A DNA stretch of 64,000 nt, from positions 868,001 to 932,000 of the forward strand of contig NZ_CP129964.1 of assembly GCF_030503675.1 (NCBI RefSeq). The letters are read 5' to 3'. The translations under genes and the position numbers were made by a program. Shown one piece after another: positions 141-61,134 of this stretch. This stretch comes from Lutimonas zeaxanthinifaciens (GTDB taxonomy: Bacteria; Bacteroidota; Bacteroidia; Flavobacteriales; Flavobacteriaceae). The first letter of the stretch is position 1. Every line of letters starts with the position of its first letter. The notes below the pieces were generated by a model. It was not told the origin of the DNA. It made no database searches and worked only from the letters and a program-made list of their open reading frames with translations.

Positions 141-174
141 AGCTGTCTGAACATTTATTCAGACAGCTTTTTTT
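141..174 (+). terminator. Rho-independent terminator after the DUF4293-like gene
   Basis: A perfect 10-bp stem (AGCTGTCTGA at 141-150 with TCAGACAGCT at 159-168) closes an 8-nt loop and runs into a T tract ending at 174. It separates the upstream gene from the promoter at 194-261, so the hairpin array downstream should be its own transcription unit. Confidence 0.9.
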
Positions 175-193
175 GGCTCAAATTTTCTCTAAC

Positions 194-261
194 GGTTTTC
201 GGGTAATTTTGAAAATCCCAAGTTCCTCTATTGTATGAAACGATGGTTGCCTATATATTTG
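194..261 (+). promoter_or_regulatory. Predicted promoter and operator driving the hairpin array
   Basis: A -7 element TATATTTG (254-261) lies 20 nt after a -33 TTG (231-233), matching the Bacteroidota housekeeping consensus. The 40 bases ending at that TTG (194-233) align without gaps to 1545-1584 in front of the exported-protein gene, with 29 of 40 identical by hand count. The -33 to -7 spacing is the same in both. An imperfect inverted repeat (GGGTAATTTT, then AAAATCCC) sits at about 201-219, where the second promoter has CAGGTA/TACCTG. I infer that one regulator reads both sites. Transcription would begin near 268. Confidence 0.6.
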
Positions 262-330
262 TAGTGTAATTATTCAAGTAATAGTTACTGTTATGAAAAA
301 AACAACCTTTGAAAAAAGGTATAAGGGGGG

Positions 331-382
331 AAAGGAGAGAAGATCACTTTTCACTTTGAAGAAAAAAGAACTTCTCTCCTTA
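331..382 (+). repeat. Hairpin unit 1 of the array
   Basis: AAGGAGAGAAG (332-342) pairs perfectly with CTTCTCTCCTT (371-381) across a 28-base loop. This is the most diverged copy: its loop lacks the shared GTGAAGCAAATTG sequence and the 3' arm is followed by AATTT rather than ACTATTTT. A possible 31-codon frame (ATG at 293, TAA at 386-388) runs through the whole hairpin, but nothing supports it as a gene. Confidence 0.75.
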
Positions 383-510
383 ATTTAACTCCGGGAATAA
401 ATTGCTATGAATTCCAAAATTGACATTTTGAAAATTAAATTTCTCGAACTGAGAAGATATTAAGAATTCATTCTTATATCATATAGTTTGCATTAGATGT
501 AAATAAAAAA

Positions 511-588
511 AAAGGGGAGGAAGGAGAGAAGTGAAGCGCCATGATTCTTTCATTAAAAAAACAAATTGCTTCTCTCCTTACTATTTTT
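511..588 (+). repeat. Hairpin unit 2 of the array
   Basis: AAGGAGAGAAG (521-531) pairs with CTTCTCTCCTT (569-579). GTG at 531-533 is spaced from AAGGAG like a start codon and opens a 68-codon frame whose TGA (735-737) overlaps the GTG of unit 3 (734-736). That frame has low-complexity composition and simply reads through repeat sequence, so I do not call it a gene. Confidence 0.75.
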
Positions 589-687
589 CAAAAAGTGGGA
601 AAATTGCTAGACATTCCAAAATTGACATACTGACATCAAATTTCTCAAAGAAATGGGATATAGGGTTTATGCCTTGTATAAAAAATA

Positions 688-797
688 CTCCTTGTTCAAA
701 TAAGGAGAAGAAGAGAGGGGAGAAAGGAGAGAAGTGAAGCAAATTGTTTTCTAATACTAAGACTAAAAATAAAATAGCTTCTCTCCTTACTATTTTT
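688..797 (+). repeat. Hairpin unit 3 of the array, with a leading mini-hairpin
   Basis: A small stem CTCCTT/AAGGAG (688-693 with 702-707) precedes the main stem AAGGAGAGAAG (724-734) with CTTCTCTCCTT (778-788). Bases 702-734 are an unbroken 33-base purine run. It contains AGAAAGGAG, a 9-base complement to the 16S rRNA tail usual in Bacteroidota. GTG at 734 would encode only VKQIVF before a stop. Confidence 0.8.
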
Positions 798-868
798 TCT
801 CCACTTCAGGAAACAGACCATTTCTGTAAAGACAGATTCAGATTTTGAATCTGATCTGATAAAAAATA

Positions 869-976
869 CTCCTTATTCAATTAAGGAGAAGAAGAGAGGG
901 GAGAGAGGAGAGAAGTGAAGCAAATTGTTTTCTAACACTAATGACAAATACAAATAGCTTCTCTCCTTACTATTTT
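869..976 (+). repeat. Hairpin unit 4 of the array, with a leading mini-hairpin
   Basis: The leading stem CTCCTTA/TAAGGAG (869-875 with 882-888) is followed by AGGAGAGAAG (906-915) paired with CTTCTCTCCT (958-967). Bases 883-915 are again 33 purines. The mini-frame VKQIVF (915-935) is identical at the peptide level to units 3 and 5, although the rest of the loop has drifted. Confidence 0.8.
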
Positions 977-1038
977 AACATAGATATGATCTCATCAATT
1001 CGAAAAAAAATACTTCAAATTATTGAAGTTGAATAAAA

Positions 1039-1153
1039 ACTCCGGAAAATTCGAATACCAGGAGTGAAAGAGAGGGGAGAAAGGAGAGAAGTGAAGCAAA
1101 TTGTTTTCTAAATACTAAGACTAAATAAAATAGCTTCTCTCCTTACTATTTTA
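1039..1153 (+). repeat. Hairpin unit 5 of the array
   Basis: AAGGAGAGAAG (1081-1091) pairs with CTTCTCTCCTT (1134-1144). A weak ACTCC/GGAGT pair (1039-1043 with 1061-1065) stands where units 3 and 4 have a mini-hairpin. The main element nearly duplicates unit 3, including AGAAAGGAG and the VKQIVF mini-frame (1091-1111). Confidence 0.8.
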
Positions 1154-1160
1154 CACAAAA

Positions 1161-1196
1161 AAAAATACTCAAATCTTGGGAACTTGAGTATTTTTT
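1161..1196. terminator. Symmetric terminator-like hairpin inside the array
   Basis: AAAAATACTCAA (1161-1172) pairs with TTGAGTATTTTT (1184-1195) across an 11-base loop, with a T run on the right and an A run on the left. It could end transcription from either side. It sits between units 5 and 6, so unit 6 may be outside the main transcript. Confidence 0.55.
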
Positions 1197-1221
1197 AAGA
1201 AGATAAACGAAATCTTCTTTT

Positions 1222-1300
1222 AAAAGGGGAAAAAGGAAAGGGAGTTAGGAGAGAAGCGAAACAAGTTTTCTAATAAACAAATAACCTCTCTCCTTACTAT
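1222..1300 (+). repeat. Hairpin unit 6 of the array (degenerate)
   Basis: AGGAGAGAAG (1247-1256) faces CCTCTCTCCTT (1285-1295), a stem with one mismatch. The GTG is lost (AAGCGAAAC instead of AAGTGAAGC), and the purine run is interrupted by TT at 1245-1246. It looks like a decaying copy. From about 1322 to 1540 the sequence is AT-rich and I see nothing recognisable. Confidence 0.65.
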
Positions 1301-1544
1301 AAATATTTCAACTATTGAAATTAAATTCAAAACTAACGAAGATGCAAGATAGAAAAAGAAAATGGAATTATCAAATAAAGTCTACAGATTAAGTAGGTGT
1401 TAAAATCATAAAAATCTTAATATCAAGTGATTATCTGTCTAATAAAAAGCATTTATATGGCTTAAACTATAGAAAAAAACATAATAGTAAAATTTTTATA
1501 TCTTTCGAGACGCCAAATTAGTGGTTTCTGGGTATAAACCTCAT

Positions 1545-1612
1545 GGTTTTCAGGTAGCTTAAAAAATACCTGATTTCGCTATTGGTTTGTAACTCATTTG
1601 CCGATACATTTG
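1545..1612 (+). promoter_or_regulatory. Predicted promoter and operator of the exported-protein gene
   Basis: The -7 element TACATTTG (1605-1612) lies 20 nt after the -33 TTG (1582-1584). Immediately upstream is a perfect inverted repeat CAGGTA/TACCTG (1551-1556 with 1567-1572), and further up GGTTT/AAACC (1523-1527 with 1536-1540). The block 1545-1584 matches 194-233 at the array promoter. The centre-to-centre arrangement suits a dimeric activator such as a LuxR-type regulator, but the regulator's identity is inferred only from proximity. Confidence 0.65.
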
Positions 1613-1675: not shown

Positions 1676-2083
1676 ATGAAAAATTTTACTATTGCAATTG
1701 CCGTATTGTTGGTTATGGCTTCTTTTACTACCAACTTAACTAACTCATCTTCAACGGTTTTGTCAGATTACGAAGGAACTTTATTAGAATCTGCTCCAAT
1801 CATGGAAAATAATGATGGAGAAGTTTCGGTAACATTTACAGTAGATCAGAATGTTATAGTTTCTTCTGCATTAATCGGTGCTTCCAATGAAATATTTTTA
1901 GTGGAAAATGGTGATTCGAACTCATCGAAAACCGTGACCCTTGATCTTCAACCAGTCGATGGTAAGGTTAAAACTGCCTTTAACAACATTTATGAAGACA
2001 ATTATGATGTTGCAGACATGAATGCTTTGTTAAATGTTAAAAACCCGGATAAAAGACCAAAAGGTGTTATCATCTGGGAGTAA
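1676..2083 (+). CDS. Small exported protein of unknown function
   Basis: This 135-residue protein begins with a short positively charged start and a hydrophobic core (residues about 4-20), a typical signal peptide, so it is probably exported to the periplasm or surface. The mature part is acidic, rich in Asn, Ser and Asp, and ends in a conserved-looking tail, NPDKRPKGVIIWE. I recognise no domain and no lipobox. It has its own promoter (1545-1612) and its own terminator (2139-2173), so it is transcribed alone between the hairpin array and a two-component system. The shared promoter motif suggests coregulation with the array. Confidence 0.75.
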   Translation: MKNFTIAIAVLLVMASFTTNLTNSSSTVLSDYEGTLLESAPIMENNDGEVSVTFTVDQNVIVSSALIGASNEIFLVENGDSNSSKTVTLDLQPVDGKVKTAFNNIYEDNYDVADMNALLNVKNPDKRPKGVIIWE

Positions 2084-2173: not shown

Positions 2174-2200
2174 ACCCTTAGTTTGAAACAAATGTATCAT

Positions 2201-2860
2201 ATGGATAAGATTATTACTGTACATATTGCTGACGATCATCAAATTTTGATTGATGGGGTTAAAGCCGTTCTTGGGCTCGAACCGAATATCGAGGTTACAG
2301 GTTATTCGCTGAATGGTAACGAGGTAGTTTCCTGGTATAAAGAGAATAGTTCTGATGTTCTTGTTTTGGATATTAATATGCCGGAACTTGATGGGATTCA
2401 GGTTCTTAAACGTCTAAGGGAATATAAAAACAAGCCTGAGATCATTGTTCTTTCGAGTTATGATGACGTGAAGCTGGTTAAAGAGGTTTTGCAGATGGGT
2501 GCAAAAGGGTTTGTACCAAAAAAGTCAGCCGGGGAACATATTGTCAATGCGGTTAGAAAGGTTTCAGAAGGAAACCAATATTTTACTGATGATATTAAAG
2601 AAAAAATGATGCAGACCTTGCTAAATGGCCAGGTTAAAAATGAGGGAAGCCAGGATGGTGTCCTGATCAGTTCTTTAACAAAACGAGAGGTTCAGGTTTT
2701 GAAACTGGTGGCTCAACAATACAGTACCCGTGAGATTGGAGATGAACTACACATCAGTGAGAGTACGGTAGAGACACATAGAAAGAATCTAATGAAAAAG
2801 GTCAAGGTCAAAAATAGTGTAGGTCTTGCTATATTTGCCTTAAAGAATGAGGTCATATAA
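2201..2860 (+). CDS. Response regulator, NarL/LuxR family
   Basis: An N-terminal receiver domain shows the acidic pair D11/D12 in IADDHQ, the probable phosphoacceptor D57 in VLVLDINMPELDG, and the conserved Lys in GAKGFVPKKS. A C-terminal LuxR-type helix-turn-helix follows (LTKREVQVLKLV, then ISESTVETHRKNL). It should be a cytoplasmic DNA-binding regulator activated by the kinase encoded next, whose gene overlaps its 3' end by 14 bases. I chose ATG at 2201 because the receiver fold starts right after it. An in-frame ATG at 2192 and TTG at 2183 are possible but add nothing recognisable. The paralogous promoters at 194 and 1545 are candidate targets. Confidence 0.9.
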   Translation: MDKIITVHIADDHQILIDGVKAVLGLEPNIEVTGYSLNGNEVVSWYKENSSDVLVLDINMPELDGIQVLKRLREYKNKPEIIVLSSYDDVKLVKEVLQMGAKGFVPKKSAGEHIVNAVRKVSEGNQYFTDDIKEKMMQTLLNGQVKNEGSQDGVLISSLTKREVQVLKLVAQQYSTREIGDELHISESTVETHRKNLMKKVKVKNSVGLAIFALKNEVI

Positions 2861-58860: not shown

Positions 58861-58936
58861 TACATATTTTATAAACTAAGGATAAAGATTATCGAAGGAC
58901 TGCCTTAATTCATAATCCCTTAAATAAATTAATAAG

Positions 58937-60600: not shown

Positions 60601-61134
60601 ATGAGACACGGAAAGAAATTTAATCATTTAAGTAGAAAAAAAGCGCATAGAAAAGCTATGTTAGCTAATATGGCTTGCTCTTTGATCGAGCACAAGCGTA
60701 TAAATACGACTGTTGCCAAAGCAAAAGCTTTGCGTCAATATGTTGAGCCACTAATCACAAAATCTAAAAACGATACCACTCATAACAGAAGGATTGTTTT
60801 TAGCAGTTTGAAAGATAAATATGCTGTTTCTGAATTGTTCAGAGATGTAGCGGTTAAAGTTGGTGACCGACCAGGTGGATATGTAAGGATCATTAAATTA
60901 GGAAATCGTCAGGGAGATAATGCTTCAATGGCAATGATCGAACTGGTAGATTATAATGAAATTTACAATCCTAAGGCGAAGAAGAAAAAAGCAACAAGAA
61001 GAAGAGGAAAAAAATCTTCATCAGCTCCGGCCGCTGAAGCACCTGCCGCTGAGGCACCTGCTGCTGAAACAGCTGTTGCTGAAAAAGTTGAAGAACCTAA
61101 ATCAAAAGATGCTGAGAACAAGGATGAAGCATAA
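60601..61134 (+). CDS. rplQ: 50S ribosomal protein L17 with Ala/Pro/Glu-rich tail
   Basis: The 177-residue protein has the L17 core ([57 protein letters not shown]) to about residue 120. A basic [12 protein letters not shown] stretch follows, then a low-complexity tail of APAAE-type repeats and a charged end. The tail makes it longer than the roughly 120-residue E. coli protein and is common in Bacteroidota. Confidence 0.97.

Follow-up and report, generated by a model that had tools for sequence, protein, structure and literature searches.

Tandem hairpin units under an operator-bearing promoter beside a LuxR/histidine-kinase pair in Lutimonas zeaxanthinifaciens: a candidate regulatory RNA

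RNA-based regulation in this bacterial family has, to our knowledge, been little explored. In the GacS/GacA-RsmY/RsmZ system, a LuxR-type regulator and promoters with an upstream operator go together with CsrB-type RNAs made of repeated GGA-containing hairpins, the GGA motifs lying in the hairpin loops. RbpB, the protein associated with FopS/GibS RNAs, is of the RRM type. According to an excerpt of PMC4866733, GacA exclusively controls rsmY and rsmZ. In Listeria, the two-component system LisRK controls LhrC1-5, a set of similar RNA units with five lhrC promoters and CU-rich UCCC motifs (excerpt of PMC4132741). Multicopy paralogous RNAs in Bacteroidota are exemplified by FopS/GibS of Bacteroides, which are separate genes, each with promoters and terminator hairpins (excerpt of PMC11697453). 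In addition, Flavobacteriales rpsU is autoregulated through an extended Shine-Dalgarno (SD), a purine tract complementary to the 16S tail placed once before the start codon, and bS21-depleted F. johnsoniae ribosomes favour strong SDs (both from excerpts of PMC9976891).

The locus compared here lies in the window, i.e., the whole analysed stretch of 64,000 nucleotides, from a genome of 3.53 Mb in a single contig. Its features are as follows.

141 to 176, plus strand: intrinsic terminator of the upstream gene (DUF4293-type), read from the sequence
196 to 261, plus strand: P1, operator TTTTCGGGTA..AAAATCCC..CTATTG and -33/-7 promoter TTG-N20-TATATTTG (alignment with relatives, pattern match)
266 to 288, plus strand: predicted 5'-terminal hairpin of the transcript (folding in this genome and several relatives; alignment using 10 of 13 leaders)
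305 to 320, plus strand: upstream hairpin of unit 1 (folding)
323 to 389, plus strand: unit 1, 'first' type, arms 332-342/371-381
486 to 504, plus strand: upstream hairpin of unit 2 (folding)
513 to 587, plus strand: unit 2, 'middle' type, arms 521-531/569-579
688 to 707, plus strand: upstream hairpin of unit 3 (folding)
716 to 796, plus strand: unit 3, 'middle' type, arms 724-734/778-788
869 to 888, plus strand: upstream hairpin of unit 4 (folding)
897 to 976, plus strand: unit 4, 'middle' type, arms 905-915/958-968
1039 to 1065, plus strand: upstream hairpin of unit 5 (folding)
1073 to 1152, plus strand: unit 5, 'middle' type, arms 1081-1091/1134-1144
1161 to 1196, plus strand: terminator-like hairpin with a U6 tail before the last unit (U-run interrupted in several relatives)
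1197 to 1219, plus strand: upstream hairpin of unit 6 (folding; outside the 58 kept hairpins)
1225 to 1303, plus strand: unit 6, 'last' type, with a distinct purine tract, arms 1247-1256/1285-1295
1547 to 1612, plus strand: P2, second operator-promoter copy, before the gene at 1676 (alignment with relatives, pattern match)
1676 to 2083, plus strand: 135-aa protein, N-terminus signal-peptide-like by eye, following the array in relatives
2183 to 2860, plus strand: LuxR/NarL-type response regulator, ATG likely at 2201 (PF00072, PF00196), candidate activator of P1 and P2
2847 to 4679, plus strand: TPR-containing sensor histidine kinase (PF13424, PF07730, PF02518)

The six head-to-tail units of the initial annotation were confirmed at 323-1303, with arms AAGGAGAGAAG/CTTCTCTCCTT, while the hairpin before each unit and the twin operator at 1547-1612 had been left out of that description. 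Exact 11-nt arms 20-50 nt apart were found four times in the window and not once in 100 shuffles. GGAGAGAAG, a sequence in the 5' arm, recurs at spacings of 189, 203, 181, 176 and 165; its 11 occurrences over both strands, against 0.47 expected, are all within the array, and the arms of units 4 and 6 are slightly changed. Reading of the sequence bore out the terminator (141-176) and promoter placed ahead of the array, and the homologue of the upstream gene in L047 belongs to DUF4293 (PF14126, E 4.7e-25). Given the U6 hairpin ahead of unit 6, the RNA might be shortened there in this genome. No 3' end could be assigned to the array RNA.

Compared with 4227 Rfam families, the array had no match at gathering score; 100-1700 gave 23 matches up to E 5, every one of them below that score. 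A CRISPR, a tRNA-like cluster, a known riboswitch and any other Rfam family were discarded on the lack of a gathering-level match, in line with the original reading as a plus-strand multi-hairpin RNA with its own promoter. The sole gathering-level Rfam match in the window is an S4-Flavobacteria ribosomal protein leader at 58887-58917 (45.7 bits, gathering score 35.2). A transposon or dispersed repeat was also rejected: second copies in the same genome are only short matches (E at least 0.04), and the covariance model described below matches nothing outside the array at E 0.001. As a separate repeat in the window, a 15-base tandem sequence, GCCGCTGAAGCACCT, is present in 3.6 copies at 61030-61083.

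Five plus-strand ORFs of at least 30 aa lie in this array, and a coding array was rejected, three of ten arrays examined having no such ORF. The ATG at 293 is missing from part of the relatives and, where present, begins frames that differ greatly in length, and ORF similarity in close relatives tracks DNA similarity. Tandem short ORFs, each an SD followed by GTG, 5 to 6 codons and a stop, would fit the GTG that 37 of 42 middle units have after the tag, in many cases with 5-6 codons. The remaining five have GCG or GAG instead, the lengths range from 2 to 68 codons, and the GGAG-GTG gap is only 4 nt compared with 10 to the ATG in rpsU, which makes this reading improbable in the extreme.

At the outset, absence of the array from close relatives had been named as evidence against it; such an absence was not observed. 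At E 0.001, array DNA gave a match in 13 of the 21 further genus genomes, in G017 to the promoter only, next to an N-masked stretch (L014, about 1401-1500); several of the genus genomes are incomplete. The response regulator was found in 11 of the 21 at E 1e-40, and ten of these eleven also match the array, the exception being G014, where the contig begins 270 bases before the regulator. G016, G017 and G019 gave an array-DNA match and no regulator match. The unit number is 5-7 in the eight genus arrays seen with first and last unit, and four in G189 (another genus) and in L058. Regulator homologues of 53-55% identity (G023, G024, G059) lack, on inspection by eye, both the array and the 1676 gene on their upstream side.

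For the wider family, a covariance model (R1) was built from 34 sequences, comprising 30 of 42 middle units and four stand-alone units. In the genome under study, whose own units are in the model, R1 recovers the six units, all in the array. It matches 7 of 397 family-sample genomes, and the exact tag GGGGAGAAAGGAGAG is likewise present in 7 of 397, with none for the reversed control. The tag match in G120, a single copy within a coding region by eye, and the model match in G268 (E 7.3e-4), intergenic with no like context, were taken as chance. Six genomes in three genera then remain, the same set by tag and by model. Since their units are in the model, the R1 matches in G000, G004, G013, G189, G162 and G356 arise by construction, and R1 found no further true members among the 397 genomes.

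Unit anatomy was studied on 13 first, 42 middle and 11 last units, 66 in all, drawn from 14 genomes; the last units of G019 and G021 and a fragment in G003, which the regular expressions missed, were left out. In middle units, AGGGGAGAAAGGAGAGAAG...CTTCTCTCCTTACTAT is nearly invariant, and RNAalifold carries the stem pairing beyond an A.A mismatch into a conserved ACT, while the last-unit tract differs, being AGGGGAAAAAGGAAAGGGAG in most. Local folding of ten arrays leaves GGGG roughly half unpaired in middle units; for the AAGGAGAGAAG after it, the unpaired share is mostly 15-26%.

The pairing of the arms within the window had been taken as an argument for selection on structure. One correction applies: the arms are nearly invariant there, so they provide no covariation by themselves and relatives are required. 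Among the relatives, the outcome for the proposed covariation was mixed. The main stem of middle units has no two-sided (covarying) changes. First units have two two-sided pairs and three cells, which shuffles reach in 104/500 and 66/500 cases. Last units have four two-sided pairs (3/500 shuffles) and five two-sided cells (0/500), with the caveat that 9 of 11 sequences leave one of the four pairs unpaired and that a one-column slide raises the covariation score slightly, from 0.119 to 0.129. The upstream hairpin keeps its position while its sequence changes: in 36 of 66 units it ends 8-9 nt ahead of GGGG, compared with 104 of 1320 shuffled stretches, and the 58 hairpins kept from 65 comprise 54 distinct ones. 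The upstream stretch also folds better than shuffles, with a mean z of -1.72 on the plus strand and, likewise, -1.27 on the reverse strand. Since main-stem covariation is none, weak or partial depending on the unit type, RNA structure is supported more by the upstream hairpin and by wobble bias than by classical covariation.

The wobble bias refers to the non-Watson-Crick main-stem pairs of the 55 first and middle units, which comprise 45 G.U (G.T in DNA), no A.C and 7 others; 24 of the 45 G.U cells sit in one stem-end column, and cells of related units are non-independent. This distribution indicates that pairing is kept in the plus-strand RNA and would break on the minus strand. Last units are opposite, with one G.T and eight A.C (five of the eight in one column), the pattern that would be expected were the minus strand the RNA. 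If so, the array would encode six pyrimidine-rich anti-SD sRNAs. A.C on plus is G.U on minus, and some upstream hairpins here also resemble minus-strand terminators by eye. Nevertheless, the first and middle units, the conservation of the plus-strand promoter together with the operator, and the missing minus-strand T-runs in L053 and L047 (by eye) make a minus-strand RNA very improbable. A DNA-level element, be it a series of inverted repeats bound by protein or a DNA structure of purine-pyrimidine type, would account for an arm sequence conserved beyond the need of structure alone, but the strand-asymmetric G.U changes and position-fixed upstream hairpins fit RNA, and such an element is hardly credible.

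With the plus-strand RNA as the preferred reading, the tags admit different partners. The units were initially called SD-bearing, which is literally true, and their tags might act as ribosome decoys, with the SD-like AGAAAGGAG binding the 16S tail of 30S subunits lacking bS21. The duplex energies assume a 16S tail sequence, the pattern for which gave no match in the own genome. On that assumption, AGAAAGGAG forms 9 pairs with the tail at -13.5 kcal/mol, compared with -16.9 for the own rpsU, which has the extended SD GAAAGGAGGTG (L074, reverse strand) as in other Flavobacteriales. Since 29% of 2000 shuffled purine tracts pair equally well, this complementarity is no specific signal. In addition, the SD-like part sits in the stem and AAAAAGGAG in 2 of 13 first units breaks the match, so a ribosome decoy is considered quite unlikely. 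Alternatively, the array could be a tandem base-pairing regulator whose tags or loops pair with pyrimidine-rich mRNA sites, LhrC- or FopS-like on one transcript. The strong conservation of tag and stem sequence would suit it, and there are known multicopy sRNAs controlled by two-component systems or by stress (excerpts of PMC4132741 and PMC11697453); as the tag is partly paired and the operator-promoter stands only ahead of the whole array, this reading is regarded as possible, though not a likely one.

The P1 promoter consists of TTG at 231-233, N20 and TATATTTG at 254-261, with a predicted transcription start near 268, and it is of the Bacteroidota type by its consensus. P1 and P2 follow the common pattern TTTTC.GG.A..TT..AAAA..CC...TT...CTATTG, exactly 20 bases and then TANNTTTG; the N20 spacing holds in 28 of 28 sites among the matches listed from the relatives, though the script may have overlooked others. 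The own genome has the operator-promoter pattern at 196-261 and 1547-1612 only. Allowing up to three mismatches, 15 matches were obtained, spread over 9 of 10 genomes and all located ahead of the RNA or of the 1676 operon, with none for the reversed control. All sites of Lutimonas and G189 precede either the array or the 1676 operon (in G009, the array promoter alone passed), and those of G162 and G356 precede a stand-alone RNA only. With a looser pattern, 10 of 23 genomes gave 17 matches, of which two lie elsewhere, in G003 and in G037, a genome of another family. The extra operator-promoter of G003 (L101, reverse strand near 1490-1560) stands a short distance upstream of a gene for an exported lipocalin-like protein, which may be a further target in this one genome. 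By eye, P2 has two direct operator halves, GTGGTTTCTGGGTA and ATGGTTTTCAGGTA, in window 1521-1556 (the extra one at 1521-1534), and P1 has one.

As anticipated in the initial annotation, the array adjoins a LuxR/histidine-kinase pair. From the sites shared by the array and the regulator's own operon, we infer that the neighbouring LuxR-type regulator binds the operator. The first gene of that operon, at 1676, encodes a protein that matched no Pfam or NCBIfam family and is present in four genomes, counting the own one, out of 249 sampled in the family; its predicted structure (mean pLDDT 58, low confidence) had no PDB match at E ≤0.001.

The suggestion that the array serves the 1676 operon as a long 5' leader or as an attenuator draws on the gene following the array in the relatives read and on the terminator-like hairpin ahead of unit 6. 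By sequence, P2 with its own operator separates the array from the gene. Furthermore, in G162 and G356, of one related genus, two units with starts 124 and 122 bases apart, respectively, lie between a DUF4870 gene and a convergent miaE, with the same operator ahead and no co-directional gene directly after them (from listed ORFs in G162 and by eye in G356). Both genomes retain a single divergent unit at the original locus, as does L059. R1 scores 26.9 bits for L088 and 24.5 bits for L059, and the G162 single unit gave no R1 match at E 1. The tag GGGGAGAAAGGA persists in these divergent single-unit versions and the 3' hairpins differ. The stand-alone copies, and a tag kept while the 3' hairpin changes, argue against a leader, which is rated an unlikely explanation on a par with the ribosome decoy, and for the tag as the working part.

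The best reading of these sequences is a free-standing RNA under two-component control rather than a leader, and the locus probably specifies a regulated, trans-acting noncoding RNA. In the proposed mechanism, a plus-strand noncoding RNA would begin near 268 and comprise six modular units, each made up of a purine:pyrimidine hairpin preceded by a small hairpin, a linker rich in A and G, and a GGGG(AG) tag. P1 would be turned on by the LuxR-type regulator whose gene lies downstream, while P2, through the same operator, would drive the small exported protein and the two-component genes, which would amount to autoregulation. The RNA would act in trans, its repeated purine tags binding and titrating one RNA-binding factor, and the unit number would set the dosage. 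A multivalent decoy is favoured by the wiring, which is like that of GacA. The explanation as a whole, decoy step included, is put forward tentatively, with a chance somewhat below even. Its most far-reaching form is distinctly doubtful: here a single modular decoy RNA would be the dedicated transcriptional output of the two-component system apart from that system's own operon, aimed at an undescribed purine-binding regulator or at bS21-lacking ribosomes as a natural SD decoy.

Among the described systems, the Gac/Rsm type is shared in the LuxR-type regulator, the upstream-operator promoter and the repeated GGA-containing hairpins. As with GacA, the candidate targets found for the regulator are an RNA, here together with the own operon. 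Unlike CsrB-type sponges, the GGA here is in linker and stem rather than loops, and no CsrA (PF02599) was found in the own genome at E 0.001, a threshold at which 3 of 14 control genomes match. The array also differs from Gac/Rsm in being one tandem array, with no sequence relation shown. It resembles LhrC1-5 in placing several similar units under a two-component system, but with one operator-promoter (only operator-bearing promoters were searched) and purine-rich tags. Multicopy paralogous units are shared with FopS/GibS, which are separate genes, and RRM_1 (PF00076) had no match in the own genome at E 0.001 (2 of 14 control genomes match). A decoy RNA, if true, would work in a genome in which the searches found no CsrA and no RRM protein. 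With rpsU the array shares a purine tract able to pair with the 16S tail, but it has many tags in place of a single SD, and these lack a start codon at a comparable distance. The papers listed by the literature searches contained no account of this RNA. An RNA resembling the chief output of a signalling pair offers a bait for the missing RNA-binding partner and a few testable steps, and the variation in unit number over close relatives offers a natural dosage series. The kind of RNA, a multi-unit regulatory RNA controlled by a two-component system, is known, while the family, the tag and the host group are, within the reach of these searches, new.
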